Shown: in pieces, positions 172 to 38,121 of the stretch
How the letters are laid out: each line of letters begins with the position of its first letter
How positions within the stretch are numbered: position 1 is the first letter of the stretch
Source: Haliovirga abyssi
GTDB taxonomy: Bacteria; Fusobacteriota; Fusobacteriia; Fusobacteriales; Haliovirgaceae
Direction of reading: 5' to 3'
NCBI RefSeq assembly: GCF_030295325.1
Contig: NZ_AP027059.1
Span: 1,484,637 to 1,548,636, forward strand
Length of the DNA: 64,000 bases
Notes under the pieces: model-generated
Told to the model about the DNA's origin: nothing
Databases searched by the model: none
What the model saw: the letters and a program-made list of their open reading frames with translations, nothing else
Translations under genes and position numbers: made by a program

Positions 172-2013
172 CTATTTTTTCTTATTCTTCCCATTCATCA
201 AATACTCATCAATAGCTTTTGCTGCTTCATGTCCATCAGCAATACCATGAATTACATCTGGTCCTTGTACAATATCTCCTCCTGCGAACAACCAATCTAC
301 ACCTTCTACTTGTCTATTTTTTCCTATTTTTGTTATTTTTCCTCTTGTTATTCCTAGTTTTTCTTCTAATTCTTTATCCAAATATGAATAATCTGGTGAT
401 TGTCCAATTGATACATAAACTTGTGTTCCTTCTACCATTTTTACATCACTTGTATCAAATTGTGGATTAAATCTATGTTGACCATCAAATATTGATAAAC
501 ATTTAAATCCTTTTACACCTTTAATATTTCCTTTATCATCTAACATTACTTCTTGTGGCCCACATCCAAGTTGATATTTAATTCCTTCTTCCATACCTTC
601 TTCATATTCTTCTCTATCTGCTGGAAGTTGCTCCTCATTTTCAAGAGCTATTAATTTAACATCACTTTTACCATATTTTATTTCTTGCAATCTAATTAAA
701 CTTCTCGCTACATCAAATGCAACGTTTCCTCCACCTATAACTACTGCACTTTTATGTACATCAATATCTTTTATTACACCTCTAGCGAAATCTCTTACTT
801 GTGGTAAGAAATCCATTGCTAAATGTACATCTTTATGGTCTGAATTAGGTATATTAAGACCTCTTGCTCCAAAAAATCCTGTTCCTAAAAATACAACATC
901 ATATTTTGAATGTAACTCTTCAAGCTGAATATCTTTTCCAACTTGTGTATTTGTATGTATTTTTACCCCAATTTTTTCTATAAAGCTAATATCTTTATCT
1001 AATGAATAATCAGGCAATCTATATTGAGGTATTCCATATCTCATAACTCCACCTGCTAAAGGCATAGCTTCAAATATATCTACTTCATAGCCCATTGTCC
1101 TTAAGTAATATCCTGCTGAAATTCCTGCTGGTCCAGCCCCTACTATTGCTACTTTTCCTTCTCCACCTTTTGAAACATTTGCCAAAACAACTTTTTCATA
1201 ATCTTCTTCAGGCGTATTATCTACAATATACCTTTTTAGCCATCTTATAGATACTGCTTCTCCACGATTTCCCAATGCACAAGCTGTTTCACACTTGTGA
1301 GTACATATTCTTCCACATACTCCAGGTAATGGATTAGTTTTGTATAACCAGTCTACTCCTTCTTCCAGATCATCTTTCCATATAGAAAGAATATATTCTG
1401 GTATATTCATTGTAGCAGGACAAGTTTTTGTACAAATTCCACACTCTACACATCTTGAAGCCTCTGCTATTGCTGTCTCTTTTGAAAAACCTTTTACAAT
1501 TTCAATAAATGAATCTTTTCTTTCATCAGCTTCTAATCCTACCATATCATATCTTTTCAAATCCAAAAGTTCTGACACTTCATCTCTTACATAAGCATTT
1601 TCATATTTTATATCATGAATACCATTTTCTTTTGGTAAAAAATAGAAATCATCGACATCTTTTGATATATGAACATATTCTTTTGTCATTGTAAGAGAAT
1701 TTGTAGTACAAATATCTACACACAACCCACAAAATGTACATCGTCCATAATCTATAGCTGGTTTTTCTGGTTTAGAGCCATCTTCATCTGGCAATTCTTC
1801 TCTTTCTTGCATAACTATTGCATTTGTTGGACATATTTCAGAACAAGTCCCACACCCTATACATTTTTCCCAATCATTTGCATGAAATCCTCTATATCTA
1901 TCTGCTGCTTCTCTTGGATTTTCAAATATATCTTCCATGGGAATTGATATAGGTTTTTTTACTAAGTATTTCCATGCTTTTATTGGTGCAAAAAAATTCT
2001 TTTTATTTCCCAT
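172..2013 (-). CDS. Fused two-[4Fe-4S] ferredoxin (MbxN/NuoI-like) and GltD/NfnB-type NAD(P)H flavoprotein
   Basis: This 613-residue protein is the last gene of the mbx operon. Two ferredoxin motifs come first (C51-C54-C57-C61 and C92-C95-C98-C102), in the place normally taken by the electron-input subunit MbxN/MbhN/NuoI. A GltD-type domain follows, with its own cluster ligands (C188/191/194/198 and C233/237/241/245), an FAD-binding VGAGPAG motif (291-297) and a second dinucleotide motif GGGNVAFD (427-434) expected to bind NAD(P)H. Known family members (GltD, NfnB) move electrons between NAD(P)H, FAD and iron-sulfur clusters. I infer that it couples ferredoxin and NAD(P)H at the peripheral arm of the complex. 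It starts 12 bases after mbxL behind an AGGGAGGA-like site. A 'glutamate synthase small chain' label would be misleading, since no GltB lies nearby. Whether NAD or NADP is used cannot be read from the sequence. Confidence 0.88.
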   Translation of the reverse strand: MGNKKNFFAPIKAWKYLVKKPISIPMEDIFENPREAADRYRGFHANDWEKCIGCGTCSEICPTNAIVMQEREELPDEDGSKPEKPAIDYGRCTFCGLCVDICTTNSLTMTKEYVHISKDVDDFYFLPKENGIHDIKYENAYVRDEVSELLDLKRYDMVGLEADERKDSFIEIVKGFSKETAIAEASRCVECGICTKTCPATMNIPEYILSIWKDDLEEGVDWLYKTNPLPGVCGRICTHKCETACALGNRGEAVSIRWLKRYIVDNTPEEDYEKVVLANVSKGGEGKVAIVGAGPAGISAGYYLRTMGYEVDIFEAMPLAGGVMRYGIPQYRLPDYSLDKDISFIEKIGVKIHTNTQVGKDIQLEELHSKYDVVFLGTGFFGARGLNIPNSDHKDVHLAMDFLPQVRDFARGVIKDIDVHKSAVVIGGGNVAFDVARSLIRLQEIKYGKSDVKLIALENEEQLPADREEYEEGMEEGIKYQLGCGPQEVMLDDKGNIKGVKGFKCLSIFDGQHRFNPQFDTSDVKMVEGTQVYVSIGQSPDYSYLDKELEEKLGITRGKITKIGKNRQVEGVDWLFAGGDIVQGPDVIHGIADGHEAAKAIDEYLMNGKNKKK

Positions 2014-2025
2014 ATTAATTCCTCC

Positions 2026-3135
2026 CTACCTATCAATTTCAGGAGCACAAACTCCCATTGTATCTAGCCAAATTGCCACATCATCTAGTCTAGTCCCTGG
2101 CAAATATTTTTCAATTCCAAGAAGCCCTTGAGGATATGATGCTCCTCTTACTGCTATTCTATAAGGCTGTCTACTTCCATCAGAAACTATATAATATCCA
2201 TATTCTCCTCTTGAAGATTCTATATGTGAGAACACTTGACCTTTTGGTATTCTCCATTTTAATGCACTTCCAGTAGATACTTTTGCTCTAACTGGTCCAT
2301 CTTTTGGCATTTTCTCTAAAACTTGTCTAATTATTCTTATACTTTGTTTTACTTCTTTATATTTTGTTTCAAGTCTTGTATATGCATCAGAATAATTCGC
2401 CACAGGTACTTCAAATTCTACTTGATCATATCTTGCATATGGATCAACTTTTCTTATATCATAAGCCTTTCCACTTGAAGTCCTAAGCCCTATTCCAGTA
2501 ACTCCCAATTCTCTTGCTACTTCTTCTGGTAAAACTATATTATCTTTTGTCCTATTTATTATAGTAGAGTTTCTTAAAATCAGGTCTTCATATTCAGAAA
2601 GCCTTCCTTCTAATTTATCTAATACATTTTCTATCTTTTTCTCTATCCCTTTTGGCAAATCTTTTCTAACTCCGCCTACTACAATATACATATGGTATAC
2701 TCTTGCACCAGTTATCTCTTCAAATATATCTAAGATTAAATCTCTTTCTGTAATTGCCCAATTTGGACCAGTATATAGACCTGTTGGTCCTCCAATTCCT
2801 CCAAATGCCATCATATGTATCCCAATTCTTGCTAGTTCTAATATTATCATTCTTATCCAATGAGCTCTTTCAGGCACTTCAATATTTCCTAATGCTTCTG
2901 CTCCCATTGCATATACCATCTCATTAATATCAGGTTCTACCACACATATTCTTGGAATTAAAGCTATATTATTTGTCCAAAGTCTTCTTTCCATCAATTT
3001 TTCAAATCCTCTATGTAACATTCCAGGTAATGGTCTTGCTCTTTTTACTATATCTCCATCCACGTATAAATGCACACTAAAATTTCCATGCATTCCAGGA
3101 TGATTAGGCCCTAAAAACAGTTTTAATTCTCTCAT
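2026..3135 (-). CDS. mbxL: Mbx/MBS catalytic large subunit (NuoD / NiFe hydrogenase large subunit homologue), MbxL
   Basis: This 369-residue protein belongs to the NuoD / group 4 hydrogenase large-subunit family: GPNHPGMHG at the N terminus and an RxC motif near residue 62. A true hydrogenase has RxCxxC and DPCxxC to hold the NiFe centre. Here they read R-I-C64-V-V-E67 and D358-T-M360-G-V-C363, so one cysteine of each pair is kept and the other is replaced by Glu or Met. From memory, loss of half the NiFe ligands is the hallmark of MBX/MBS, the ferredoxin-linked sulfane-sulfur reductase, as opposed to the H2-evolving MBH. The start overlaps the end of mbxK by 4 bases. The protein should sit in the cytoplasmic arm next to MbxJ. 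Its actual substrate (polysulfide, or an electron relay to the fused flavoprotein) is not decided by sequence. Confidence 0.87.
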   Translation of the reverse strand: MRELKLFLGPNHPGMHGNFSVHLYVDGDIVKRARPLPGMLHRGFEKLMERRLWTNNIALIPRICVVEPDINEMVYAMGAEALGNIEVPERAHWIRMIILELARIGIHMMAFGGIGGPTGLYTGPNWAITERDLILDIFEEITGARVYHMYIVVGGVRKDLPKGIEKKIENVLDKLEGRLSEYEDLILRNSTIINRTKDNIVLPEEVARELGVTGIGLRTSSGKAYDIRKVDPYARYDQVEFEVPVANYSDAYTRLETKYKEVKQSIRIIRQVLEKMPKDGPVRAKVSTGSALKWRIPKGQVFSHIESSRGEYGYYIVSDGSRQPYRIAVRGASYPQGLLGIEKYLPGTRLDDVAIWLDTMGVCAPEIDR

Positions 3136-3644
3136 CTTTCTTCACCTTCTTTTTTAAAATCCACATTATAATCTCTTTTAGCATATTTTTTATCTGAATA
3201 TTTTTGTGGATCGAAATCTTTTCTCATTGGCGGAATATCATCCCATAATTCTAAAAACAACCCTTTTTTAGAATCTTCATTTCCTTCAAATTCAACACCA
3301 AAAAATTCATGAACATCTCTTTCATAAAATTTTGCTCCAGGAAAAATAGGTACAATTGTTTTAAACAGAGGTTTTTCTCTATCTAATCTTGTTCTTACTT
3401 GAATTGTAATTCCAGTTTCCCAATTCATCAAAATAAACACTAATTGAAACTCTTTATCATCAATAAAGTCAACGCATGTTAAAAATGTTAATTGATTCCA
3501 ACCAATAGATTTTAAATATGCTAATATTGCATGAATATCTCTACTTTCAAAATCAAAACTAACTTGTTGCTTGGTAGGCTGTTCTATATTAAGTACATTA
3601 TATTTAGATTTAATATCCTCTATTATTTTATTCATGGAATTCAT
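3132..3644 (-). CDS. mbxK: Mbx subunit K (NuoC-like 30-kDa subunit)
   Basis: This protein of about 170 residues has the NuoC signature E-R-D-V-H-E-F-F-G-V near its middle. It is a structural part of the peripheral arm, pairing with MbxL. I chose the ATG at 3644 because it stands about 9 bases after a GGGAGGTGG ribosome binding site. An upstream TTG at 3665 would overlap that site, and ATGs at 3653 and 3635 remain possible. The gene overlaps the end of mbxJ and the start of mbxL, which suggests translational coupling. NuoC-type subunits carry no cofactor, and no clustered cysteines are seen. Confidence 0.85.
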   Translation of the reverse strand: MNSMNKIIEDIKSKYNVLNIEQPTKQQVSFDFESRDIHAILAYLKSIGWNQLTFLTCVDFIDDKEFQLVFILMNWETGITIQVRTRLDREKPLFKTIVPIFPGAKFYERDVHEFFGVEFEGNEDSKKGLFLELWDDIPPMRKDFDPQKYSDKKYAKRDYNVDFKKEGEER

Positions 3645-4176
3645 CTTTAACATCCACCTCCCCAAGTGCTAACTTTTGATTTTCTTCATACCACTCTTTA
3701 TTTTCCTGATATTTTTTCCATCCATTAGCTGTTCCTGCTTTTATTTTATCCATTAAATCTTTAAAAGCATTCATTACCGCTTCTGGTCTTGGCATACATC
3801 CTGCTACAAAAACATCTACTGGAATATAGTTATCTAATTTGTTTATAGTTGAATAAGAATCATAATACACTCCTCCATTTAATGTACAAGAGCCAAATCC
3901 TATTACATATTTTGGATTTAACATTTGCTCATAACTATATATTACTCTTCTTAATGTTTTAGCACTTAAATACCCAGTTACTAATAATACATCTGATTGT
4001 CTTGGTGTTGCCATTGGTCCCATTCCTATTCTTTCCATATCAAATCTTGATGTCATTGCAGGTGGTAACTCTATGGCACCACATCCTGTACAAAAATGCA
4101 TCATCCACATTGATTTTCCTCTAAAAAAATCTCCTAATTCTTCCCATGTTTTTCTATCTTTTTCATCTAAAACCAT
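3628..4176 (-). CDS. mbxJ: Mbx subunit J (NuoB-like, proximal [4Fe-4S] cluster)
   Basis: This 182-residue protein is the NuoB / hydrogenase small-subunit homologue. The cluster ligands are visible as F-C-T-G-C-G near residue 30, G-S-C-T near 95 and A-G-C-M-P-R-P near 125, the pattern that binds the proximal (N2-equivalent) [4Fe-4S] cluster. In complex I and group 4 hydrogenases this cluster delivers electrons to the site formed with the large subunit. The start has a GGGGGTGA site 4 bases upstream and overlaps mbxM by 10 bases. Confidence 0.88.
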   Translation of the reverse strand: MVLDEKDRKTWEELGDFFRGKSMWMMHFCTGCGAIELPPAMTSRFDMERIGMGPMATPRQSDVLLVTGYLSAKTLRRVIYSYEQMLNPKYVIGFGSCTLNGGVYYDSYSTINKLDNYIPVDVFVAGCMPRPEAVMNAFKDLMDKIKAGTANGWKKYQENKEWYEENQKLALGEVDVKDEFHE

Positions 4177-5084
4177 ATTGTCACCCCCAAACCAGTAAAT
4201 ACTACAACTAAAGCTTGAACAACTGCCATAGCTAATGGTACTTTATAATAGAATTTAATTAAATCATCTATTTTAAATCTTCCTACAGCTGTTGCTATCA
4301 TTGTAGTTAATGTATATACTAAGAAATATTTTGTTAAAAATGCTATTATAGTTGGTCCTCCACCTAAAAATAGATTTACAAACAAACTCACTTCTATAAA
4401 TGTAGAAAACTCATGTTGTAAAATAAGCATTGCTAAATGTTTTCCACCATATTCTACCAATGGTCCTGATGCTATTTCCGCTGGAGCTATTGGTGTGTCA
4501 AATGGTTTTTTCCCTAACATTCCCATAAGAGAAACAAAAGCAACTATCCCACCTAATGGAAATCTAAACATATTCCAATATAGAAATCCGCCTTGTTGCA
4601 AATGAGCTATTGTTGATATAGAAGATGTTTTAAATCCAAATATAATAGTCATAACTGTTATTATAAATGGAAGCTCATATCCAACCATTTGAGTCAAAGC
4701 TCTCATTACTCCAATACTTGCCCAAGGATTTCCTGACCCAACAGCACTCATTGCCATACCAAGAGAACCTATTGCAAGCAAATAAGTTATTACAAAAAAA
4801 TTATCCATATTATCAAATGATATAATTCCTGCAACTGGCATAAATATTAATGTAGCCATAGTTCCACCTAACGCCATCATAACGCCAAAATCATATATCC
4901 AACCATGTGAGATTGGTTCTTTACTCATTGCTTTAAATATATCTAAAAATGTTTGATACCAAGGCGGTCCAAATCTTTTGTGTATTCTAGCTGTGATTTT
5001 ACGCTGAATACCATCAAGAGAAACCTGCCATGCAAATGCAAATAGCAAAAGTCCAAATCCTATAATAAATCCCATATAATTCAT
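4167..5084 (-). CDS. mbxM: Mbx subunit M (NuoH-like membrane anchor)
   Basis: This 305-residue integral membrane protein with about eight hydrophobic segments belongs to the NuoH/HyfC family (R-K-I-T-A-R-I-H-K-R-F-G-P-P near residue 30; G-K-K-P-F-D-T-P and the acidic P-A-E-I-A-S-G-P-L-V-E-Y motif near 200). In complex I this subunit joins the redox arm to the ion-pumping arm through a chain of acidic residues. It lies before mbxJ rather than after mbxL. As I recall, that order distinguishes archaeal mbx operons from mbh operons. An AGGAGG site precedes the ATG. Confidence 0.88.
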   Translation of the reverse strand: MNYMGFIIGFGLLLFAFAWQVSLDGIQRKITARIHKRFGPPWYQTFLDIFKAMSKEPISHGWIYDFGVMMALGGTMATLIFMPVAGIISFDNMDNFFVITYLLAIGSLGMAMSAVGSGNPWASIGVMRALTQMVGYELPFIITVMTIIFGFKTSSISTIAHLQQGGFLYWNMFRFPLGGIVAFVSLMGMLGKKPFDTPIAPAEIASGPLVEYGGKHLAMLILQHEFSTFIEVSLFVNLFLGGGPTIIAFLTKYFLVYTLTTMIATAVGRFKIDDLIKFYYKVPLAMAVVQALVVVFTGLGVTIWF

Positions 5085-6904
5085 GCCCTACCTCCTAACA
5101 TAAATATTACAGATACTATAACTACTATCCACAAAACCGCAACTGCTGGTCTAAAACTAAAGAATATTTTTGATACCATATCCCCTAAATCTTTTACTCT
5201 TGTTCCTATTGAAAATAAAAATTCCTCAACTTTAGGATGTTTTTCATAAAGTCTTTCAAATGGTGCATAATAATTAGATGAATAATGATATAGCTCAGGA
5301 GAATGAATAAACTCTGCTGAAGTATAAGTATCCATTAATCCAACTTTTCTTGATTTTGGTAATACCAAGAATATTATTAATGCTATTATAAATCCAAATG
5401 TAAATACGACTGACATCCAAGTTGCATTTAAATTTCCATTATTAGCTATTATATTTAATCCATCTATTTTTATTGGAATCATTCCAACTGATTTTTCTAT
5501 TTTTCCTATATATTTCAACATAACTGTTGGAAATATTCCAAAATATTGTGTTAATGCTGAGATAGCTATCATAGGTATAAGCATTAACATAGGAGCTTCT
5601 TTTACATCTTTATGTTCAGGTAACTCTTGTCCCAAAAATACTGTTGACAATGGTCTAAACACGTATAAGAATGAACCTACACTTCCAAAGAAAGCAGCCA
5701 TTGCTATAAATACCATTCCATGTTTTACTAACGATTGAAATATCAACCACTTAGATACAAATCCACCCATAGGAGGAATTCCAGCTAAAGATATTATCGC
5801 CATTAAATACACAACAAATGTAACTGGCATTTTATGAATCATTCCACCTAATTTTGACATTTTAGTTGTACCAGTTCTATATGCTACAACTGCTGCTGCT
5901 AAGAACATTGCTGAAGTTGCCATTGCATGATTAAATATATGCATTAGTCCTCCTGCCATTCCAATTGAATCATTTAATGCTATTCCTATTAATATATATC
6001 CACTATTACTTACAGTAGAATATGCTATCAATCTTTTCATATCATCTTGCTTTATGGCCATTAATGTACCTACTACAATACTTATAGCTCCTAAAATCAA
6101 TAAAATATAATTTTGATAAGGAACTCCTAATATTTTTAAACTGCTTCCAAATGCTTTTCCTGACGGCAATACAGCTACTGTTAAAAATGCTATAAATGCT
6201 CCCATTTTTACTAATCCACCTGATAATACTGGTGAAAATGTATGTGGTGCATTCCCATGCGCAAGAGGAAGCCAAATATGGAATGGAAAAATTCCAAGTT
6301 TGGTAAGTCCTGCCATTACTAATAGGAAAAACATTCCTGTAGCAAGTAATGGATCTTTTGCGACACTAGCTAACACTGCCACAGTGTCAAATGTATTATA
6401 TTTTGAATATAAAAACATTATCCCAAACAGCATTGAAAACGAACCTGCTGTACTAATTGTATAATATACAACTGATGCCTTTCTTGATTTTCCTAGAGGT
6501 ATTATGAACATAGAACCCCAAACAACTATCTCCCAAAATACAAATATTCCTAATAAGTTGCTCGAAAAAAACAATCCTATTGTTCCTGCTAATGACAACA
6601 AATATAAAAAATTATATGATGCAGGATATATTAGTCTTTCCATCCAATATATATTAAAGAACGAAGCTCCTACATAAGTTAATGTCATTACCATTGCAAA
6701 AAACCATCCATAAGGTGTTATCTTAAATTGAAAAATATTTTGACCTGAAACCACAGATAAATCTTTATAACTATACAATACAATTAATGTTATTAATGAT
6801 ATTATAACAGTTATCCATGCTCCAGATTTTTTATTTAATTTTGTGGTAAAATAAGCTGCTACTCCACCAACCATAATTAACAATATTAAATTTATTAAGC
6901 TCAT
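5081..6904 (-). CDS. mbxH': Mbx subunit H' (second NuoL/MnhD-like antiporter subunit)
   Basis: This 607-residue protein has about 14-16 hydrophobic helices and belongs to the Mrp antiporter / NuoL-NuoM-NuoN family. The signature K-L-G-I-F-P-F-H-I-W-L-P-L-A-H is near residue 205, with further membrane-embedded Lys and His residues downstream. It is longer than the neighbouring MbxH and ends in a soluble stretch (about 520-575) plus a final helix. Two adjacent antiporter subunits (H and H') separate Mbx from the one-H hydrogenase Mbh, and imply a second ion-translocation channel. It begins 15 bases after mbxH with a GGAGGGG site and overlaps mbxM by 4 bases. Confidence 0.87.
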   Translation of the reverse strand: MSLINLILLIMVGGVAAYFTTKLNKKSGAWITVIISLITLIVLYSYKDLSVVSGQNIFQFKITPYGWFFAMVMTLTYVGASFFNIYWMERLIYPASYNFLYLLSLAGTIGLFFSSNLLGIFVFWEIVVWGSMFIIPLGKSRKASVVYYTISTAGSFSMLFGIMFLYSKYNTFDTVAVLASVAKDPLLATGMFFLLVMAGLTKLGIFPFHIWLPLAHGNAPHTFSPVLSGGLVKMGAFIAFLTVAVLPSGKAFGSSLKILGVPYQNYILLILGAISIVVGTLMAIKQDDMKRLIAYSTVSNSGYILIGIALNDSIGMAGGLMHIFNHAMATSAMFLAAAVVAYRTGTTKMSKLGGMIHKMPVTFVVYLMAIISLAGIPPMGGFVSKWLIFQSLVKHGMVFIAMAAFFGSVGSFLYVFRPLSTVFLGQELPEHKDVKEAPMLMLIPMIAISALTQYFGIFPTVMLKYIGKIEKSVGMIPIKIDGLNIIANNGNLNATWMSVVFTFGFIIALIIFLVLPKSRKVGLMDTYTSAEFIHSPELYHYSSNYYAPFERLYEKHPKVEEFLFSIGTRVKDLGDMVSKIFFSFRPAVAVLWIVVIVSVIFMLGGRA

Positions 6905-6919
6905 CGATTCCCCTCCTTT

Positions 6920-8293
6920 CTATATTTTTAATAAAACTAGAGGCATTATACCCATAAATACTATTAATACTCCCAATATTCCTACACTACATTTTAAAAT
7001 AAATTCTCCATCTAAAGAAAGTGATGTTACATATTTTTCAGATGTTTCGACTCCTTCTTCTCCAGGAACCCATAATTTTGATAACAATCTAACATAATAT
7101 ACACCTTCTATTAAACTTGAGATTAATAGTACTACTGCTACCCATTCGTGATTTCCATTAAATATAGCAATTAAAACTTTTAATTTAACATAAAATCCAA
7201 AAAACATTGGAAGTCCTATTATTGACATTGCTGCTGTTGTAAATCCAAATCCCATTATTTTATGCTTATTAAATATTCCTCTTAAATCTTCTACTTTATC
7301 ACTACCTGCTTGAATAGCTAATGCTCCTGCTATAGAAAACATAATTAATTTTGCAACTGCATTATTTACAATTTGTAATATAGCTACATCATCAAGTTTC
7401 AATAAAAATAGAGTAACTATAAGACCTGCTTGAGCAATACTTGAAAATAGAAGTATCTTTCTTAACGAATTTCCTGAAAATGCTGCTGTTTCCGCTAAGA
7501 ATAAAGTCAATAATGAAATTGTTATTAATACTATTGATAAATTTTGTGATATTAATAATGTTTGAGAAAATAATCTACCAAACACAAACATTATTGCTGC
7601 TGCATATACAGAGGCAAATATCGGTCCTGATAATTTATTTGTAGAGTTATAAACTCCTTTTACCCAACCATTAAATGGAAATAATTTTGATTCTACTGCA
7701 ATTCCAGCAAATATTAAAACTATTGGTAATAATAATACTCCGCTTGTAACTCCAGGAGCATATAATTTTCCTCTCAAATCAGCCATATTAAGAGTTCCAA
7801 ATATATTATATATAATTATTATTCCAAATAGATATAAACTTGATCCAACTGTTCCAATAATCAAATAATTAAATGAATGTCTATATTTTTTAGTCATTGC
7901 AGATATTATATATCCTGATATTGAAGCAATCTCTAAGAATACAAATAAGTTAAATAGATCTCCTGTAAGTACCATTCCGTTTACAGCTGCTAAAGATACA
8001 ATTAATACAGAAGCATATTTTTTCACTTCACTATATCCCATAATAACTGCTAATGCAAAGATTATATTAACGATTAATATTCCTGTAAAACTATATCCAT
8101 CCAAAACAAGTGTAATTCCAAATGGCGGTTTCCAATTACCAATATTATAAATTCCATATTTCACCACTGATAAAAGATATAAATTTATAGCTATTGATAA
8201 AGATAATAATATTTTAGCTCCTCTTTTCCACATTACTGATATAAATGCTAACAATAGAGGAAATGCTACTAACAATACTGGACTATTCATCAT
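6920..8293 (-). CDS. mbxH: Mbx subunit H (MnhD/NuoN-like Na+/H+ antiporter subunit)
   Basis: This 457-residue polytopic membrane protein is homologous to MrpD/MnhD and MbhH. The motif E-S-K-L-F-P-F-N-G-W-V-K-G-V-Y around residue 200 holds the conserved pair of membrane glutamate/lysine residues typical of these antiporters. It follows mbxG with an 11-base overlap and uses a GGAGG site. With MbxA-G it should form the Na+/H+ exchanging half of the complex. That sodium is the coupling ion is an inference from the Mrp-like gene set. Confidence 0.87.
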   Translation of the reverse strand: MMNSPVLLVAFPLLLAFISVMWKRGAKILLSLSIAINLYLLSVVKYGIYNIGNWKPPFGITLVLDGYSFTGILIVNIIFALAVIMGYSEVKKYASVLIVSLAAVNGMVLTGDLFNLFVFLEIASISGYIISAMTKKYRHSFNYLIIGTVGSSLYLFGIIIIYNIFGTLNMADLRGKLYAPGVTSGVLLLPIVLIFAGIAVESKLFPFNGWVKGVYNSTNKLSGPIFASVYAAAIMFVFGRLFSQTLLISQNLSIVLITISLLTLFLAETAAFSGNSLRKILLFSSIAQAGLIVTLFLLKLDDVAILQIVNNAVAKLIMFSIAGALAIQAGSDKVEDLRGIFNKHKIMGFGFTTAAMSIIGLPMFFGFYVKLKVLIAIFNGNHEWVAVVLLISSLIEGVYYVRLLSKLWVPGEEGVETSEKYVTSLSLDGEFILKCSVGILGVLIVFMGIMPLVLLKI

Positions 8294-8627
8294 CTTTTAC
8301 CTCCATTTCATCCAAATCAAAAGTTCCATATTTTGCATAAATATTTTTTGCAAATGCAAGTCCTACTGCAGTTACTCCTACTCCTATTACAATTGAGGTA
8401 AGAACTAACGCTTGTGGCAATGGATCTACAAACTTTATCATATTATTATTAAATACTTTTGTAAATATAGGTGCTACTCCACCTTTTACATATCCTATAG
8501 ATATTATAAATAAATTTAATCCAACATCAAGCACATTTAAAGAAATTAATATTTTTAATAAATTTCTTTCTGTTAACATTCCATAAATTCCTATTAATAT
8601 TAATATTATAAATAAATATTGTATCAT
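8283..8627 (-). CDS. mbxG: Mbx subunit G (MnhC/NuoK-like)
   Basis: A 114-residue protein with three hydrophobic helices, matching MnhC/MrpC and NuoK: a G-I-Y-G-M-L-T-E-R-N-L-L-K-I-L-I-S turn, then an A-L-V-L-T-S-I-V-I-G-V helix near residue 80. It is a small antiporter subunit lying between MnhB-like and MnhD-like genes, exactly as in mrp and mbx operons. It overlaps its neighbours by 1 and 11 bases. Confidence 0.87.
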   Translation of the reverse strand: MIQYLFIILILIGIYGMLTERNLLKILISLNVLDVGLNLFIISIGYVKGGVAPIFTKVFNNNMIKFVDPLPQALVLTSIVIGVGVTAVGLAFAKNIYAKYGTFDLDEMEVKDDE

Positions 8628-9379
8628 TATTCCACCTCCCCTGAGATGAAGTTCACTATGATTCCTGATAATTCAGCTCCAACTTTTAATCCTACAAGTA
8701 CATATATTATAGGTATAATTCCTGCACTAAATAAATTTCCTATTGTGCCTGTTGGTAAAAAATTATACAAAAATGCTCCACCTAACAAAATACCTGTTAA
8801 TCCTATTATTACATATAAGCTTCCTGCTATTCCTTCAACTAATTTTAGCGAATGAACTTTTGCTTGGAAATCTTTATGTGATACATATAAAAGCAATACT
8901 ATACTTGCTAACATACTTCCTCCTGGAAATCCTCCTCCTGGAGTCAGATGCCCATGAACAAATATATATACTCCTACAATAAACATTAATCCCACAATTA
9001 CTTTTACTCCTGCTTTTACTATAAAATTAGGTTCTACTGCAAATTGAAGTTTTGTCCCAACTCCTCCTAAAAGAAGTGCCACTCCTAATGCAGATACAAA
9101 TAAAACTGTAACTTCTCCTAAAGTATCAAATGATCTATAATTTACAACAATAGAAGTTACCACGTTTGCTGAACCTGATTCTAAATCCTTATTTTTTCCA
9201 TATCTAATACTCTCATTGTTTCCATTTACATTTTTGTTTAAAAATTTATTAGAAACAGATTGAGAGATATTAGCTTCTCCATATTTGTTAAATTTAACTT
9301 TTGAACTGTCCAAATATAGATTACTAAAAATAAAATATCCAAATAAAATTACAATTAATAAAGCACCTATTTTTTTCAT
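8627..9379 (-). CDS. mbxF: Mbx subunit F (MnhB-like, with an N-terminal MbhE-like extension)
   Basis: This 250-residue membrane protein has a C-terminal MnhB domain from about residue 110: K-A-G-V-K-V-I-V-G-L-M-F-I-V-G-V-Y-I-F-V-H-G-H-L-T-P-G-G-G-F-P is the family hallmark. The first ~100 residues contain one N-terminal helix, a polar linker and a helix reading R-S-F-D-T-L-G-E-V-T-V-L. They resemble MbhE or the end of MnhA, so this gene appears to combine E and F of the hydrogenase-type operon. It starts directly after mbxD. Confidence 0.85.
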   Translation of the reverse strand: MKKIGALLIVILFGYFIFSNLYLDSSKVKFNKYGEANISQSVSNKFLNKNVNGNNESIRYGKNKDLESGSANVVTSIVVNYRSFDTLGEVTVLFVSALGVALLLGGVGTKLQFAVEPNFIVKAGVKVIVGLMFIVGVYIFVHGHLTPGGGFPGGSMLASIVLLLYVSHKDFQAKVHSLKLVEGIAGSLYVIIGLTGILLGGAFLYNFLPTGTIGNLFSAGIIPIIYVLVGLKVGAELSGIIVNFISGEVE

Positions 9380-9631
9380 CTATTTATCGCCCTCCTTTTT
9401 TGCAGAAAAAAGAGTAAACAGAAATAATGCTGTTGCCATTCCTGAACCAATAACAGCTTCTGTAATACCTACATCAGGTGATTTCATAAATACAAAACTA
9501 ACAACTGCAAGCATACTCATAATCGATAAATAAATTATAGAATTTAAAACTTTTTTAGATGATACTGCCATTATGCCAAATAATATTAAAATCAATCCTA
9601 TTATTATTTCAGAAATCTCAATTATCCCCAT
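9380..9631 (-). CDS. mbxD: Mbx subunit D (DUF4040 / MnhB-associated small membrane subunit)
   Basis: An 83-residue protein with three hydrophobic helices and the D-V-G-I-T-E-A-V-I-G-S-G motif of the MbhD / C-terminal MnhA family (DUF4040). I place the start at the ATG at 9631, six bases after an AGAGGTGA site. A longer reading from 9670 would put that site inside the gene. It overlaps the end of mbxC by 14 bases. It forms part of the antiporter module. Confidence 0.82.
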   Translation of the reverse strand: MGIIEISEIIIGLILILFGIMAVSSKKVLNSIIYLSIMSMLAVVSFVFMKSPDVGITEAVIGSGMATALFLFTLFSAKKEGDK

Positions 9632-9956
9632 TTTCATCACCTCTTTTATACTTGTCTTCCATCTCATCAACTACAACTTTTGCTGGTTTCACTCCAATTA
9701 AATAAGCAGCTCTTCCTATAGCAGAACTTCCTACTGGATTTGTTATAGCTAAAAATATTACTATTAATATAGTTTTTACTAACCAACTTGGATGCAAAAA
9801 TCCTACTCCTAATATAAGAGATATTGCTCCAAGAGTTGTTGCTTTTGTTCCTGCTTGAAGTCTATTATATACATCTGGCATTCTAAATATCCCAAGTCCG
9901 CCTAGGGCATAAAATAAAGCTCCTATTATTATTAAAACATAACCTATTACACTCAT
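9618..9956 (-). CDS. mbxC: Mbx subunit C (MnhG-like)
   Basis: A 112-residue membrane protein with the MnhG/MrpG signature G-G-L-G-I-F-R-M-P-D-V-Y-N-R-L-Q-A-G-T-K-A-T-T near residue 20-40 and three helices. The short C terminus is charged and cytoplasmic. It is third in the operon and overlaps mbxB by 4 bases. Confidence 0.88.
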   Translation of the reverse strand: MSVIGYVLIIIGALFYALGGLGIFRMPDVYNRLQAGTKATTLGAISLILGVGFLHPSWLVKTILIVIFLAITNPVGSSAIGRAAYLIGVKPAKVVVDEMEDKYKRGDENGDN

Positions 9957-10204
9957 TTTCTCCCCTCCAAATACCTTGCCATTAATACTGTCTCTACAAA
10001 TGCAAGTATTCCATATACTAAAGCAATATCCAAATATAGGCTATTCCTAAAGATATGTGCTAAAAATACTATTGCTCCTGTTATAATTACATTTAATGTA
10101 TCAACTCCAACTACCCTATCTGGAACTGAAGGGCCTAAGATTACCCTTAATATAGAAAAAAACACCCCAATTCCAAGTAAACTAAAAACAACTAAATTAA
10201 TCAT
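9953..10204 (-). CDS. mbxB: Mbx subunit B (MnhF-like)
   Basis: An 83-residue, three-helix protein matching MnhF/MrpF: G-P-S-V-P-D-R-V-V-G-V-D-T-L-N near residue 28-42 is the family motif. It overlaps mbxA by 4 bases and mbxC by 4 bases. Its ribosome binding site is GGAGGG. Confidence 0.88.
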   Translation of the reverse strand: MINLVVFSLLGIGVFFSILRVILGPSVPDRVVGVDTLNVIITGAIVFLAHIFRNSLYLDIALVYGILAFVETVLMARYLEGRK

Positions 10205-10686
10205 TCAAAAATCCCTCCTAACACCTTCTCAAAGGTTTGAGATATGTTTTCTTGATACTCTTTGCTTCCACTTCCTTTTACATCAATCCAATGAATATAG
10301 ATATTTTCATCATCTACATCCAAAGTTAATGTTCCTGGTGTTAAAGTAATTGAATTTGCTAAAGCTAATTTTCCAACTTCTCCTTTTAAAGATGTTTTGA
10401 TTTTTACAAATCCTGGATTAATAGGAAGTGATGGCGACAATACTCTGTATGCCACATCCAAATTGGATAATATCATTTGATAGATAAATACTGGAATGTA
10501 AACAAACACAAATTTAAATATTTTTACAATACTATCAACTCCAAATGAATAGCTGACTTGTTTATAAATTACAGCAGCCACTATAAGTGAAGCTATTCCT
10601 CCAACAACTATTTCTTGGATAGAAATTCCTGTTGCAACAATCCAAATTAACCATAGCAAAACAAACGTTGAGATAAACTTTTTCAT
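10201..10686 (-). CDS. mbxA: Mbx subunit A (MnhE-like), first gene of the operon
   Basis: This 161-residue MnhE/MrpE-family protein has two or three N-terminal helices and a soluble domain containing N-S-I-T-L-T-P-G-T-L-T-L-D-V, the diagnostic motif. It is the first gene of the 13-gene transcription unit, about 125 bases downstream of a recognisable promoter, with a GGAGGA site. The order A-B-C-D-F-G-H-H'-M-J-K-L that follows equals the mbx order I know from Thermococcales. Confidence 0.87.
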   Translation of the reverse strand: MKKFISTFVLLWLIWIVATGISIQEIVVGGIASLIVAAVIYKQVSYSFGVDSIVKIFKFVFVYIPVFIYQMILSNLDVAYRVLSPSLPINPGFVKIKTSLKGEVGKLALANSITLTPGTLTLDVDDENIYIHWIDVKGSGSKEYQENISQTFEKVLGGIFE

Positions 10687-10818
10687 TTTTGTCCTCCTTT
10701 CTTTTTTTGTTTTTATGTATCTGTAAAATTTAAGATTTTCTTAAAAGATTGTGAAATATAGGTACTTTTTTCACATATCATTGTATGATAATATTAACTT
10801 ATTAAAGCTGACTAATAT

Positions 10819-10848
10819 AATATACAATATTGCAACTGCCTGTGTCAA
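10819..10848 (-). promoter_or_regulatory. Promoter of the mbx operon
   Basis: On the minus strand a perfect TTGACA (10843-10848) is followed after 18 bases by TATATT (10819-10824). The leader to mbxA is about 125 bases and holds an inverted repeat TATCAT-N3-ATGATA near 10777-10793 and a GTGAAA/TTTCAC pair (10751-10774), either of which could be a binding site or RNA hairpin. The rest of the 348-base gap up to 11034 has only the upstream gene's terminator. Confidence 0.65.
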
Positions 10849-10982
10849 GTTTTTTATCTTTTTTGGTTTGTTTTTAATCATATTGTAACTCGTTTTTATA
10901 ATATTAACCTATAATTTAACAAAAATCAATTTTTTTATTTATTAGAAAATATAAATTTATTCAGAAAATAATGCAAAAAATA

Positions 10983-11010
10983 AAAAAACAGGATTTTACT
11001 CCTGTTTTTA
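10983..11010 (-). terminator. Terminator after the CoA-disulfide reductase-like gene
   Basis: An AAAACAGGA / TCCTGTTTT stem with a 6-base loop and T-tract lies about 25 bases after the stop codon. It is nearly symmetric, with runs of A and T on the two sides. Confidence 0.85.
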
Positions 11011-11034
11011 ATCTGTTTTATATAATTTTAAAAA

Positions 11035-12393
11035 TTATTTTTTACACCCTTTTCTTAAAACTATACATTCTGCTGCTTTTATTATTGGATATTTTGTAGG
11101 TGCAGAACTAAGCAACGGATGAGTTCCTATTTGAGTTGTATATAACTCAGTAACTGTCATTCTATTTTGAATAGCTAATCCAAGAACATTTATTAGTTCT
11201 CCAGCACTTTCTCCTCCAATTACTTCTGCCCCAATTATTATTTCAGAATCTTTTGCTACTATTAATTTTACAAATTGTTTTTTTGTTCCAGGTAATGTTC
11301 CAGGATGTTTGTCAACACCTTCATTTCTACCTACCATTACTTCAAATCCACTTCTTTTAGCTTCTTCTTCTGTAACTCCTGCTGCTCCAAATCCAATTTC
11401 TCCAATTGCTGTTGAAAATATTGCTACTGTTCCTATAAAAGTTCTTACAATAGATAGGTTATATAAATTCATTCCTGCCATTCTTGCCTCTGCTGCTGCT
11501 GTTGAAGCAAGCATAATTGGTGTAGATTTTCTTGTAATAAAATCTACTTTTGCTGCACAATCTCCAACTGCAAGTACATCTTTATCATCTGTTCTTAAAT
11601 AACTATCTACTCTTATTGCTCCTAATTTATTTAATTCTAATCCAGAGTCTGCTGCCAATTTAGTATTTGGTCTATATCCCATTGAAAGCACTACTGCATC
11701 AGCTTCTATTCTTTCACCATTTTCCAATACTACTGCTTCTACTTTCCCATCTCCAACTATCTCTTTTACAGCTACTCCTGTTTTTAAACTCACTCCTCTT
11801 TTTACCAATATTTCTTGAGCTCTTTCTGCTATTTCTACATCAAATGCTCTTCCTAATATTGTAGGTAATACTTCTACTAAAGTTACATTTTTTCCTATTT
11901 TATTTAATTCATCTGAAACTTCTACTCCAATAAATCCAGCTCCAATTACAACTATTTTTTTCATTGAGTTAAATTTTTCTTTTATTGCATCAAGATAAAT
12001 TTTATCTTTAGGAATTGAGAATACATTTTCTAAATCTGAACCTTTTAACCAAGTTGGTTTGTATGGAGTTGAACCAGTTGCAAATACTAATTTATCATAT
12101 TGAAATTCTTCTCCTGAAGCAGTTTTTAAAACTTTTTCTTCTCTATTCACATCTACAACTTCATCCTGTTTAAATTCTACTCCAGCTTTTTTTAATCCAC
12201 CTAAAGGGATAACATCTTTATCGCTAGAATCTAATGTCCCAAAAATGTATGGAATTCCACAAGGAACTAAAGCATCTTTCTCTTTTCTAATCAATAATAC
12301 ACTTTTATCAGGGTAATGTGCTTTCCCTGTCATTGCTGAAACTAATCCTGCTGCACTTCCACCTATTACAATTACATCAAATTTTTTCATCAT
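11035..12393 (-). CDS. CoA-disulfide reductase / NAD(P)H sulfur oxidoreductase-type flavoprotein
   Basis: This 452-residue FAD- and NAD(P)H-binding protein belongs to the single-cysteine pyridine nucleotide-disulfide oxidoreductase family. An FAD motif GGSAAG (11-16) is followed by V-P-C45-G-I-P-Y, the redox-active cysteine that forms a mixed disulfide with CoA in CoA-disulfide reductases. A second dinucleotide motif, G-A-G-F-I-G-V-E, lies near residue 150, and the C-terminal dimerisation domain includes G-T-H-P-L-L-S-S-A-P-T near 430. Known members include CoA-disulfide reductases, NADH oxidases and the CoA-dependent sulfur reductase NSR that works beside the Mbx complex in Pyrococcus. Its position directly upstream of mbx, with its own promoter and terminator, supports a sulfur-reducing role here, but sequence alone cannot exclude an NADH oxidase. 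The start is the first of two adjacent ATGs after GGAGG. Confidence 0.83.
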   Translation of the reverse strand: MMKKFDVIVIGGSAAGLVSAMTGKAHYPDKSVLLIRKEKDALVPCGIPYIFGTLDSSDKDVIPLGGLKKAGVEFKQDEVVDVNREEKVLKTASGEEFQYDKLVFATGSTPYKPTWLKGSDLENVFSIPKDKIYLDAIKEKFNSMKKIVVIGAGFIGVEVSDELNKIGKNVTLVEVLPTILGRAFDVEIAERAQEILVKRGVSLKTGVAVKEIVGDGKVEAVVLENGERIEADAVVLSMGYRPNTKLAADSGLELNKLGAIRVDSYLRTDDKDVLAVGDCAAKVDFITRKSTPIMLASTAAAEARMAGMNLYNLSIVRTFIGTVAIFSTAIGEIGFGAAGVTEEEAKRSGFEVMVGRNEGVDKHPGTLPGTKKQFVKLIVAKDSEIIIGAEVIGGESAGELINVLGLAIQNRMTVTELYTTQIGTHPLLSSAPTKYPIIKAAECIVLRKGCKK

Positions 12394-12448
12394 AAAACCT
12401 CCATTAATTTATTTTTTTGCATTATATATATCTTATCATCTTCATATC

Positions 12449-12477
12449 ATTATAATACAATATAATCTTTCTGTCAA
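12449..12477 (-). promoter_or_regulatory. Consensus promoter of the CoA-disulfide reductase-like gene
   Basis: On the minus strand TTGACA (12472-12477) is separated by exactly 17 bases from TATAAT (12449-12454), a full sigma-70 consensus. The predicted leader is about 50 bases. An unusually strong basal promoter suggests high expression. Confidence 0.8.
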
Positions 12478-12540
12478 TTGTTATGTTAAAAAAATCTTTT
12501 GACACACCAATAAAATTTCACAAGAATATTCTAAACACAG

Positions 12541-13035
12541 TTATTTTTTCTTTTTTAAAAAATAATGTAACTCTACATTTTCAGCTTGGCTTAATCTCCT
12601 ACAAGTTTCTCTTGCAATATTTAATATTACTCTACTAAATATATCTTTATCTTCTTTAGCTAATTTCATTAAAGCTTTTTTAGATATAATCAATAGCTCT
12701 ACATCTTCTGTTGCAATTGCTGTAGCACTTTGTGGCTGTATTCCAATCAATGCTGTTTCTCCAAAACAACTTCCAACACCAAATTCTATTAATTCAAATA
12801 TTTCATTCTCTTTTTCAAAATAGAGTTTTACTTTCCCTGAATTAATTATATAAATATTACTTGGAGAATCGCCTTGTTTAAATATAATTTCATCTTTTTT
12901 ATAATAAACACTATTTAAAACTCCAAAAATTCTATATAATTGCAAATCATTTAATCCACCAAAAATTGAAATCCTATTTATTATAGGAACTACTTTATCT
13001 ATATCTATAAGTGGATAAAAAATTTCTTTTTTCAT
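12541..13035 (-). CDS. Stand-alone cyclic nucleotide-binding-fold protein without DNA-binding domain
   Basis: This 164-residue protein has a single CAP/CNMP-binding beta-roll (about 20-125: I-F-K-Q-G-D-x-x-x-N-I-Y-I-I-N-S-G-K-V) and an alpha-helical tail. The phosphate-binding cassette reads F-G-E-T-A-L...P-Q-S-A-T-A (91-106). The Arg that contacts the cyclic phosphate in cAMP/cGMP binders (PRAAT) is Gln102 here, so cyclic nucleotide binding is doubtful. There is no helix-turn-helix, so it is not a CRP-type transcription factor. It has its own promoter (13081-13109) and lies between glycogen phosphorylase and the sulfur-reductase-like gene. Its role is unknown. Confidence 0.8.
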   Translation of the reverse strand: MKKEIFYPLIDIDKVVPIINRISIFGGLNDLQLYRIFGVLNSVYYKKDEIIFKQGDSPSNIYIINSGKVKLYFEKENEIFELIEFGVGSCFGETALIGIQPQSATAIATEDVELLIISKKALMKLAKEDKDIFSRVILNIARETCRRLSQAENVELHYFLKKKK

Positions 13036-13080
13036 ATAAAAGCACCTCTTTTAAAATTATCATAATATAACTCTACACAA

Positions 13081-13109
13081 ATTATAACTTATATTATCTC
13101 CAAATTCAA
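13081..13109 (-). promoter_or_regulatory. Promoter of the cyclic nucleotide-binding-fold gene
   Basis: TTGAAT (13104-13109), 17 bases, then TATAAT (13081-13086) on the minus strand, about 45 bases before the start codon and right after the glgP terminator. Confidence 0.6.
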
Positions 13110-13113
13110 GCAT

Positions 13114-13146
13114 AAAAAAAGAGAATCTAAAAGATTCTCTTTTTAA
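13114..13146 (-). terminator. Bidirectional-looking terminator after glgP
   Basis: AAAAAGAGAATCT / AGATTCTCTTTTT with a 3-4 base loop, starting just past the glgP stop codon. Confidence 0.88.
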
Positions 13147-13152
13147 AAATTA

Positions 13153-15603
13153 TTATTTTACTTCTGTAGCTTTTATTTCCCAAATTTCATCTGCATATTG
13201 TTGTATTGTTCTATCACTTGAGAATTTTCCACCATTTGCAACATTTATCATGGCTTTTTTAGCCCAATCAATTTTATCTCTATATGTTGCACCAATTTTT
13301 CTTTGTGCTTCAGCATATGATGCAAAATCTCTTAAAACATAATATTGGTCTGGTCTATTTCCTTCTACACCATACATTAATGAATCATATAACTCTCTAA
13401 ATATTTCTCTATTATCTGGGCTATATGTACCATCAACTAATTGATCAATAACTTTTTTCAATTCAAGATTTCTATTGTATTCATCCCATGGATTATATGA
13501 ATTTGTTTTATTTAATTCTAAAACTTCATCTGCTTTTAATCCAAATATGAATGCATTTTCTTCTCCAGCTTCTTCTACTATTTCAACATTAGCTCCATCT
13601 AAAGTACCAATTGTTAAAGCTCCATTTATCATAAATTTCATATTTCCAGTTCCTGAAGCTTCTTTTCCAGCAGTAGATATTTGTTCTGATACATCTGATG
13701 CTGGGAATATTTTTTCTGCAACTGATACTCTATAATTTTCTATAAATACAACTTTTATTTTTCCTTTTATAGATTGATCATTATTTATTTTATTTGCTAT
13801 ACTATTTATTAACTTTATTACTAATTTAGCTCTTCTATATCCAGAAGCTGCTTTTGCTCCAAATATGAATGTTCTAGGATATATATCTAAATCAGGATTT
13901 TCTTTTAATCTATTATATAAAGCCATTATATTTAATACATCTAATAATTGTCTTTTATATTCATGTAATCTTTTTACTTGAACATCAAATATTGAATTAG
14001 GATCAACATCTATATTATTATGTTCTTTTATGTATTCAGCTAATTTAACTTTATTTTCATATTTTATTTTCATAAATCTATTAACAACTTCTTCATCATC
14101 AATAAATTTTTCAAATTTCTTTAATTCAGAAAGATTTATTGCCCAATCTGTTCCAATTTTTTCATTTAATAATTTTGCTAACTCTTTATTTGATTTTAAT
14201 AACCATCTTCTTTGAGTTACTCCATTTGTCTTATTATTAAATTTTTCAGGATATAATTCATACCAATCTTTTAATTCTTGATTTTTTAATATTTCTGTAT
14301 GTAATGCTGCAACACCATTTACAGAATGAGACCCAACAATTGCTAACCATGCCATTTTTACCATACCATCAGCTATTATTCCCATTCTATGAGTTCTCGC
14401 CCAATCTCCAGGATATTTTTCATTTAATTCAGCTAAGAATCTTCTGTTTATCTCTTCTACTATTTGATAAATTCTAGGTAATAATCCACTAAATAGATCA
14501 ATTGGCCATTTTTCTAATGCTTCCGCCAAAATTGTATGATTTGTGTATGCACATGCTTTAGTAGTTATATCCCAAGCTGTATCCCAATTTAATCCTTCCC
14601 AATCTAAGAATATTCTCATTAATTCAGGAATAGCTACAACTGGATGAGTATCATTTAATTGCATTGCTACTTTTTCAGCAAATTTAGAAAAATCATTTCC
14701 ATATTTTTTCTTATAATTTCTAACAATATCTTGTACACTTGCTGATACAAAGAAATATTGTTGTTTTAATCTAAGTGCTTTTCCTGATGGACCACTGTCA
14801 TTAGGATATAATACTCTTGAAATATCTTCAGTTATACTTTCTTTTGACATTGCTTTTATATATTCTTGATCATTAAATAGTTGTAAGTCAAAACCATCTT
14901 CTGCTTCTGCTTCCCACAATCTTAATGTATTTACTGTCTTATTATTGTATCCCACAATAGGCATATCATATGGCACAGCTGTTATAACTTCTGCATCCAC
15001 TCTTTTAAATCTTTCTCTTCCATTTTCTTCTCTAACAAGAGTAACTTTTCCGCCAAATTTAATTTCTATAGATTCATCTTTTCTTTTAACAGACCAAGGA
15101 TCTCCATTTTTTAGCCAGTTATCAGGAAATTCTACTTGATATCCATCTATTATTTTTTGTTCAAACATTCCATATCTATATCTAATTCCATATCCATGTC
15201 CTGGTAATTTTAAACTTGCCAATGAATCTAAGAAACATGCTGCTAATCTTCCAAGTCCACCATTTCCAAGTCCAGCATCTGGTTCTGTGTCTTCCACTTC
15301 ATTATAATTAAATCCAAGTTCATTTAAAACTTCTGCCACATCTTCTTCTATAAGCATATTTACCAAATTATTACTTAAAGCTCTTCCCATTAAAAATTCT
15401 GCTGAAAGATAATATGCTTGTTTTACCTCTTCTTCTGCATAAGTTTTTTTTGTATCTAACCAATTGTCAAGTACATAATCCATTGCTGCTCTTGATACTG
15501 CATCAAATATTTCTTGCTTAGTTGCACATGAAATTGTTTTACCAAATTGTTCTTTTAATTTCAATTTGATATTTTCCTTAAACTCTCCTCTGTTAATATT
15601 CAT
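13153..15603 (-). CDS. glgP: Glycogen/starch phosphorylase
   Basis: An 816-residue GT35 family phosphorylase, which releases glucose-1-phosphate from glycogen or maltodextrin in the cytoplasm using PLP and phosphate. The length is normal for bacterial enzymes. Family motifs include E-D-T-E-P-D-A-G-L-G-N-G-G-L-G-R-L near residue 105, F-V-F/I-E-N-Y-R-V-S near 580, and the PLP-lysine region E-A-S-G-T-G-N-M-K-F near 640. It stands alone, with a consensus promoter upstream and a strong terminator downstream. No glgA, B, C or malQ is in the window, so whether the natural substrate is stored glycogen or imported maltodextrin is open. Confidence 0.97.
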   Translation of the reverse strand: MNINRGEFKENIKLKLKEQFGKTISCATKQEIFDAVSRAAMDYVLDNWLDTKKTYAEEEVKQAYYLSAEFLMGRALSNNLVNMLIEEDVAEVLNELGFNYNEVEDTEPDAGLGNGGLGRLAACFLDSLASLKLPGHGYGIRYRYGMFEQKIIDGYQVEFPDNWLKNGDPWSVKRKDESIEIKFGGKVTLVREENGRERFKRVDAEVITAVPYDMPIVGYNNKTVNTLRLWEAEAEDGFDLQLFNDQEYIKAMSKESITEDISRVLYPNDSGPSGKALRLKQQYFFVSASVQDIVRNYKKKYGNDFSKFAEKVAMQLNDTHPVVAIPELMRIFLDWEGLNWDTAWDITTKACAYTNHTILAEALEKWPIDLFSGLLPRIYQIVEEINRRFLAELNEKYPGDWARTHRMGIIADGMVKMAWLAIVGSHSVNGVAALHTEILKNQELKDWYELYPEKFNNKTNGVTQRRWLLKSNKELAKLLNEKIGTDWAINLSELKKFEKFIDDEEVVNRFMKIKYENKVKLAEYIKEHNNIDVDPNSIFDVQVKRLHEYKRQLLDVLNIMALYNRLKENPDLDIYPRTFIFGAKAASGYRRAKLVIKLINSIANKINNDQSIKGKIKVVFIENYRVSVAEKIFPASDVSEQISTAGKEASGTGNMKFMINGALTIGTLDGANVEIVEEAGEENAFIFGLKADEVLELNKTNSYNPWDEYNRNLELKKVIDQLVDGTYSPDNREIFRELYDSLMYGVEGNRPDQYYVLRDFASYAEAQRKIGATYRDKIDWAKKAMINVANGGKFSSDRTIQQYADEIWEIKATEVK

Positions 15604-38091: not shown

Positions 38092-38121
38092 TTCCACCCA
38101 CTCCTCTTATTTTTTATGAAA

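Follow-up and report, generated by a model that had tools for sequence, protein, structure and literature searches.

The first 11 kb of the 64,000-nucleotide stretch of Haliovirga abyssi DNA analysed here (the window) encodes a membrane complex with relatives among the group 4 [NiFe] hydrogenases, the sulfane reductases (MBS/MBX) and complex I. Two questions are raised by this locus: to which of these classes the complex belongs, and which electron donor feeds it, given that NADH has to be considered as donor (or NAD+ as acceptor) because the N subunit continues into an NADH-type flavoprotein.

The operon is a self-contained unit of 13 genes on the minus strand, running from 10686 down to 172, tightly packed and partly overlapping. 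The gene order is MrpE, MrpF, MrpG, MbhD, MbhE/MnhB, NuoK-like, MbsH, MbsH', M, J, K, L and N. This is the 13-gene MBS/MBX set with H, H' and the full Mrp-like complement. The two antiporter subunits and the position of M before J, both claimed in the preliminary description, are present, with the order M, J, K, L, N. The features of the operon and its upstream neighbour are as follows.

11035 to 12393, minus strand: CoA-disulfide reductase / NAD(P)H sulfur reductase (NSR)-like flavoprotein, 452 aa; a neighbour outside the unit
10819 to 10848, minus strand: promoter-like site, TTGACA-18-TATATT, 11/12; consensus match only
10201 to 10686, minus strand: MbsA-like (MrpE), first gene of the unit
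9953 to 10204, minus strand: MbsB-like (MrpF)
9618 to 9956, minus strand: MbsC-like (MrpG)
9380 to 9670, minus strand: MbsD-like (MbhD)
8627 to 9379, minus strand: MbsE-like (MbhE and MnhB domains)
8283 to 8627, minus strand: MbsG-like (MrpC/NuoK-like)
6920 to 8293, minus strand: MbsH-like antiporter subunit, MrpD/NuoN-like; Ala at the K250 equivalent, Gln at the H330 equivalent
5081 to 6904, minus strand: MbsH'-like antiporter subunit, NuoM-like; equivalents of P. furiosus MbsH' E128, K248 and H336 all kept
4167 to 5084, minus strand: M subunit, MbsM/NuoH-like membrane anchor
3628 to 4176, minus strand: J subunit, MbsJ/NuoB-like; proximal-cluster Cys C32, C97 and C127, plus C29
3132 to 3665, minus strand: K subunit, MbsK/NuoC-like; start codon approximate
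2026 to 3135, minus strand: L subunit, MbsL/NuoD-like, 369 aa, with C64xxE67 and M360xxC363
172 to 2013, minus strand: N subunit fused to a GltD/NfnL/StnC-like FAD-NAD(H) domain, 613 aa
104 to 151, minus strand: terminator-like hairpin 3' of the N-GltD gene; consensus match only

Promoter-like sites are no more frequent in this DNA than in shuffles. A putative strong ribosome-binding site, AAAGGAGG, precedes the ATG of the MrpE gene, again as a consensus match only.

The L subunit bears most directly on the class of the complex. The motifs reported earlier, C64-x-x-E67 and M360-x-x-C363, are exact in the 369-aa open reading frame (C64-V-V-E67 and M360-G-V-C363), and the two CxxC Ni-Fe motifs of group 4 [NiFe] hydrogenases (MBH) are absent from it. 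In the alignment with 6u8y_L, C64 and C363 correspond to C85 and C385 of MbsL from Pyrococcus furiosus, which is also the best solved relative (E 9e-91). NuoD of complex I ranks second (1e-66), while the hydrogenase subunit MbhL (6cfw_L) is a much weaker match (2e-33). The structure paper on MBS describes C85 and C385 as the two of four Ni-Fe ligands that MbsL retains, both being non-catalytic (PMC7684303). Both cysteines are found in every complete L of the MBX clade (60-odd loci), the first in a Cxx[E/D] motif throughout and the second as a lone C-terminal Cys, and neither is found in any of the 11 NuoD rows of the alignment; this pattern is thus not a product of chance. A phylogeny of L, which the preliminary description had proposed as a check, places it with MbsL and NuoD.

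The J subunit aligns with MbsJ without gaps (E 1e-66, CTGC...C...C), whereas the matched spans of J and MbhJ differ, at 128 versus 131 residues. Its proximal-cluster motif is three residues shorter than that of MBH and contains three coordinating cysteines, as in MBS/MBX. Across 26 sequences, C32, C97 and C127 never vary; C29, which corresponds to the non-coordinating C25 of MbsJ, is lost in one relative, namely the J subunit of a Bacteroidales MAG (locus L047). By the criteria of the MBS structure paper (PMC7684303), the catalytic cluster of J is of the MBS type.

An active group 4 [NiFe] hydrogenase of the MBH/Hyf type would share its ancestry with this complex, as the weaker MBH match (E 2e-33) indicates. 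Nevertheless, in every member other residues stand in place of two of the four Ni-Fe cysteines, and L is placed with MbsL and NuoD, so that this explanation is refuted at the sequence level and retains practically no probability. The earlier assignment to MBS/MBX rather than to the hydrogenases, on which residues, J-cluster motif, gene order and phylogeny agree, is well supported. In itself this class is ordinary, as the family is known in bacteria and the MBX of T. maritima has been described already.

In MBS, MbsH (E138, K250, H330) and MbsH' (E128, K248, H336) have both been proposed to be proton pumps (PMC7684303). In the bacterial set, the MbsH' type has all three pump residues in 60/60 subunits. 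The MbsH type keeps the Glu, but a Lys at the K250 position occurs in none of 55 and His330 in only seven of them; the subunit encoded in the window has Ala and Gln at these positions. The presence of Glu, Lys and His in both subunits, proposed for P. furiosus MBS and not a defining feature of the wider MBX family, is not found here. Since only the MbsH' type has the full set of pump residues, two antiporter subunits do not amount to two equal pumps in this complex, a difference that the preliminary description did not mention. In 34 of the 55 MbsH-type subunits, the position of E221, two residues from MbsH E219, is occupied by a Lys, which might compensate for the loss of K250. The pump Lys of MbsH has also been lost in relatives in which N is not fused, so its loss does not track the NADH domain.

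The gene at 172-2013, whose fusion went unnoticed in the preliminary description, bears on the second question. Residues 1 to about 120 of its product are NuoI/MbsN-like, and residues from about 148 to 612 form a GltD/NfnL-type FAD-NAD(P)H oxidoreductase. N is therefore not the stand-alone two-cluster protein of P. furiosus, although that feature does not define the wider MBX family. An AlphaFold2 model built with 40 sequences (pLDDT 88.6, pTM 0.83) superimposes on P. furiosus NfnL with a Z of 45.7, at 1.8 A over 442 residues. The cluster ligands lie at C51-C61 and C92-C102 in the NuoI-like part and at C188-C198 and C233-C245 in the GltD part, followed by K260 and L457-E458. All 16 cluster cysteines are invariant in 45/45 fused relatives. 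A further cysteine, C505, is found in 40 of the 45 and is absent from NfnL.

The ligand position of the FAD-proximal cluster distinguishes two kinds of GltD-type domain: it is a Glu in the bifurcating NfnB and a Lys (K170) in StnC, whose flavin is non-bifurcating and through whose GltD domain electrons from NADPH reach an Fe-S chain (PMC10482914). Where NfnB/NfnL has a Glu, all 45 fused proteins have a Lys (Lys260), as in a StnC-type entry domain and not as in a bifurcating NfnB/NfnL subunit. Bifurcation at an NfnL-type flavin was considered and judged unlikely, given K260 at this position. After strand 2 of the nucleotide-binding fold, all NADPH-type homologues shown have the motif 'YRR', which is replaced by 'xLE' in 43/45 fused MBX proteins (the two deviating ones have ARK and YRR). 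As a rule of thumb, an acidic residue at the end of Rossmann strand 2 usually indicates NADH, and NADH is accordingly the predicted nucleotide of the GltD domain. Electrons are known to enter complex I and MBS at the N/NuoI end. From its sequence, the GltD domain looks like a non-bifurcating NADH module at the electron-entry end of the complex. Among open-access papers, to which the search extended, no functional account of the NuoI-GltD fusion was found; an earlier mention in subscription papers is possible.

The fusion is spread over about eight bacterial phyla. Its hosts include Thermotogota, Clostridia MAGs, Izemoplasma/Acholeplasma, Halanaerobiales, Mcinerneyibacteriota, Spirochaetota, Myxococcota and one Bacteroidales MAG; among the Thermotogota, the T. 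maritima genome scores above the cut-off for the NuoI-GltD fusion (PRK13984). An unfused N with no adjoining GltD characterizes a clade of Thermoanaerobacter, Caloramator and Clostridium tepidiprofundi, which in the tree is nested among fused lineages, suggesting one gain and one loss. In the tree of GltD domains, the fused rows form one group except for the Bacteroidales row L047. The GltD domain of L047 has the NADPH-type 'YRR' yet also the Lys cluster ligand, and possibly represents an early-branching or independent fusion.

The host, with a genome of 2.73 Mb in 2 contigs, is a member of the Fusobacteriota in a family of its own, its nearest 16S relatives being Ilyobacter (86%), Fusobacterium (85%) and Cetobacterium (85%). 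The complex was found in only one of 98 Fusobacteriota genomes, neither an MBX-level L subunit nor the NuoI-GltD fusion being present in the other 97, which makes horizontal acquisition probable. The L subunit is 84% identical to that of Marinitoga; an assignment of the window to Marinitoga on this basis was rejected, as the phylum tally of the genome, its 16S and its kin structure all point to Fusobacteriota. A sister position to Marinitoga in the L-only tree (support 81) was set aside, as the six-gene tree differs: there the window falls between Marinitoga/Thermotogaceae on one side and the Clostridia/Izemoplasma clade on the other (100). A recent transfer is unsupported, since the operon and a housekeeping gene nearby have similar GC3. 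Together, the six-gene placement and the native-like GC3 indicate that the operon was probably acquired horizontally a long time ago. Fusobacteriota is a phylum known for mesophiles, and from this membership a mesophilic host is plausible. Such a host would not be new for the family, since the complex also occurs in Izemoplasma and Halanaerobium relatives.

Directly upstream of the operon lies the NSR-like gene, about 62% identical to genes of two Thermosipho MAGs (L028, L017), where it is also near MBX, on the opposite strand. It was considered as a part of the system and rejected: its occurrence is sporadic, only L028 carrying it among the 50 loci with both operon ends, and the gene has a terminator-like hairpin to itself (11009-10984). 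Further upstream, positions 12541-13035 encode a 164-aa protein with a cyclic-nucleotide-binding domain, in which a DNA-binding domain was not detected; it is possibly a truncated regulator of the Crp/Fnr type. At 33022-41907, two adjacent very large open reading frames (1691 and 1261 aa), with only single matches to bacterial Ig-like domains, probably encode surface proteins. Elsewhere, the host genome contains a second complex I-like cluster (L093, G000:C1:2352000-2366000, at 6377-13991), with HyfB/HyfF-like membrane subunits, a HycG-like subunit and a HyfG-like large subunit that lacks the Ni-Fe cysteines (SVAGDTT, NLSYCGFDL). This cluster looks like an energy-converting hydrogenase-related (Ehr) complex, and no dedicated redox partner was identified.

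The reading that we favour, tentatively and at close to an even chance, is that this operon codes for a bacterial MBX that is an ion-pumping sulfane (polysulfide) reductase of the MBS type, with an NADH dehydrogenase domain fused to its N subunit. What we observe is the gene content, the residues and cluster ligands, the predicted fold and the phylogeny; the NADH donor, the direction of flow, the polysulfide acceptor and the ion stoichiometry are what we infer for a predicted activity. NADH would give two electrons to the FAD of the GltD domain. These would pass singly through the two [4Fe-4S] clusters of GltD, continue over the pair of NuoI-type clusters in N and arrive at the proximal cluster of J with its three Cys ligands, where polysulfide bound in the chamber between J, L and M would be reductively cleaved. 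Reduced ferredoxin could probably donate to N as well, as in MBS. The redox step would drive ions through the Mrp-like arm, in which only the MbsH'-type subunit has the full proposed pump residues. In T. maritima, MBX is induced by S0 and thiosulfate, with mbxA up 4.4-fold on S0, and has been modelled as a ferredoxin-only sulfur reductase with no mention of the flavoprotein domain (PMC9431562).

The main weakness of this reading is thermodynamic, as little energy is available from the oxidation of NADH by polysulfide. The drop is small, roughly 20-60 mV, and hardly pays for one ion per two electrons; that from ferredoxin is far larger. An acceptor other than polysulfide is possible, going by the sequences. 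A weak driving force from NADH alone would be answered by a three-way enzyme that co-oxidises ferredoxin and NADH with polysulfide in a confurcation-like manner, the low-potential electrons paying for the pumping while NADH is disposed of. GltD/NfnL-type flavins do bifurcate in Nfn (PMC10482914); here, however, the ligand in 45/45 proteins is the Lys of the non-bifurcating StnC instead of the Glu, and the operon contains no NfnA/NfnS partner, which leaves such an enzyme quite unlikely. If the complex were a plain Pyrococcus-type MBS passing electrons from ferredoxin to sulfane only, the GltD domain would be structural or a minor side entry. L, J and the gene order are indeed MBS-like, and the relatives in Thermoanaerobacter and Caloramator do without any GltD by N, but a vestige would not keep all its cofactor ligands invariant over about eight phyla, and we regard this explanation as improbable.

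A transfer from ferredoxin to sulfane alone also leaves the fused NAD(H)-type domain unexplained, a point in favour of an ion-pumping ferredoxin:NAD+ oxidoreductase, Rnf-like in effect, in which ferredoxin would donate, GltD reduce NAD+ and the arm pump. This would be the older view of Mbx as a ferredoxin:NADP oxidoreductase (PMC4596419), with NAD+ in place of NADP+. Against it stands the location of GltD on N, at the entry end: electrons going from ferredoxin to GltD would skip the coupling site of J, L and M, a site that keeps its MBS-specific residues everywhere. Moreover, the host genome also encodes Rnf, a canonical Nfn subunit and an [FeFe] hydrogenase, and a further ferredoxin:NAD complex would be redundant beside them. 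We therefore consider this alternative rather unlikely.

Compared with known systems, the complex shares with P. furiosus MBS (6u8y) its 13 subunits, the C85/C385 pair, the three-Cys motif of J, the pump residues of MbsH' and the Mrp-like arm. It differs in the fusion of N to a GltD-type NAD(H) flavoprotein and in an MbsH type without K250 and mostly without H330. The MBX of T. maritima, with its match to the fusion (PRK13984), belongs to the same bacterial family, whereas the host of the window is a member of the Fusobacteriota. StnC of the Stn transhydrogenase (8oh5, PMC10482914) is similar in that a Lys-ligated GltD feeds a Nuo-type Fe-S chain, but unlike N-GltD it is NADPH-dependent, fused to a NuoG domain and soluble, and feeds a bifurcating FMN. 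With NfnL/NfnB of Nfn (5jca, 4ylf), the domain has in common the fold, the FAD and the two [4Fe-4S] clusters; Nfn has the Glu and the NADPH-type 'YRR', while MBX has the Lys and 'xLE' and no NfnS partner.

The likeness to complex I consists of the NuoBCDI core, the NuoH/M/N-like arm and, as we infer, NADH entry at the NuoI end. Unlike complex I, the complex has a GltD-type module instead of NuoEFG, of which none is encoded among the open reading frames of the operon. Its L subunit keeps two cysteines, both lacking at the Cys-free site of NuoD, and the acceptor would be polysulfide instead of quinone.

MBS has been discussed as bridging hydrogenases and complex I, the latter being distinguished by the module through which NADH enters. 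It may be, at somewhat less than an even chance, that a widespread bacterial branch of MBS independently gained a GltD-type NADH-oxidising entry module on its NuoI-like subunit and so became a quinone-free counterpart of complex I, which would pump ions while oxidising NADH with polysulfide and in which one of the pumps is degenerate. The combination of a conserved NADH-type module with a degenerate MbsH pump is noteworthy, and with this operon such complexes reach a phylum in whose other 97 genomes none was found. If the reading holds, a second, unrelated NADH-type module would sit on the same subunit, and NADH entry would have arisen more than once. The energy balance would then change for Thermotoga and other sulfur-reducing fermenters in which MBX has been modelled as ferredoxin-only, and the wiring of the bacterial complex may resemble that of respiratory complex I more closely than hitherto supposed.
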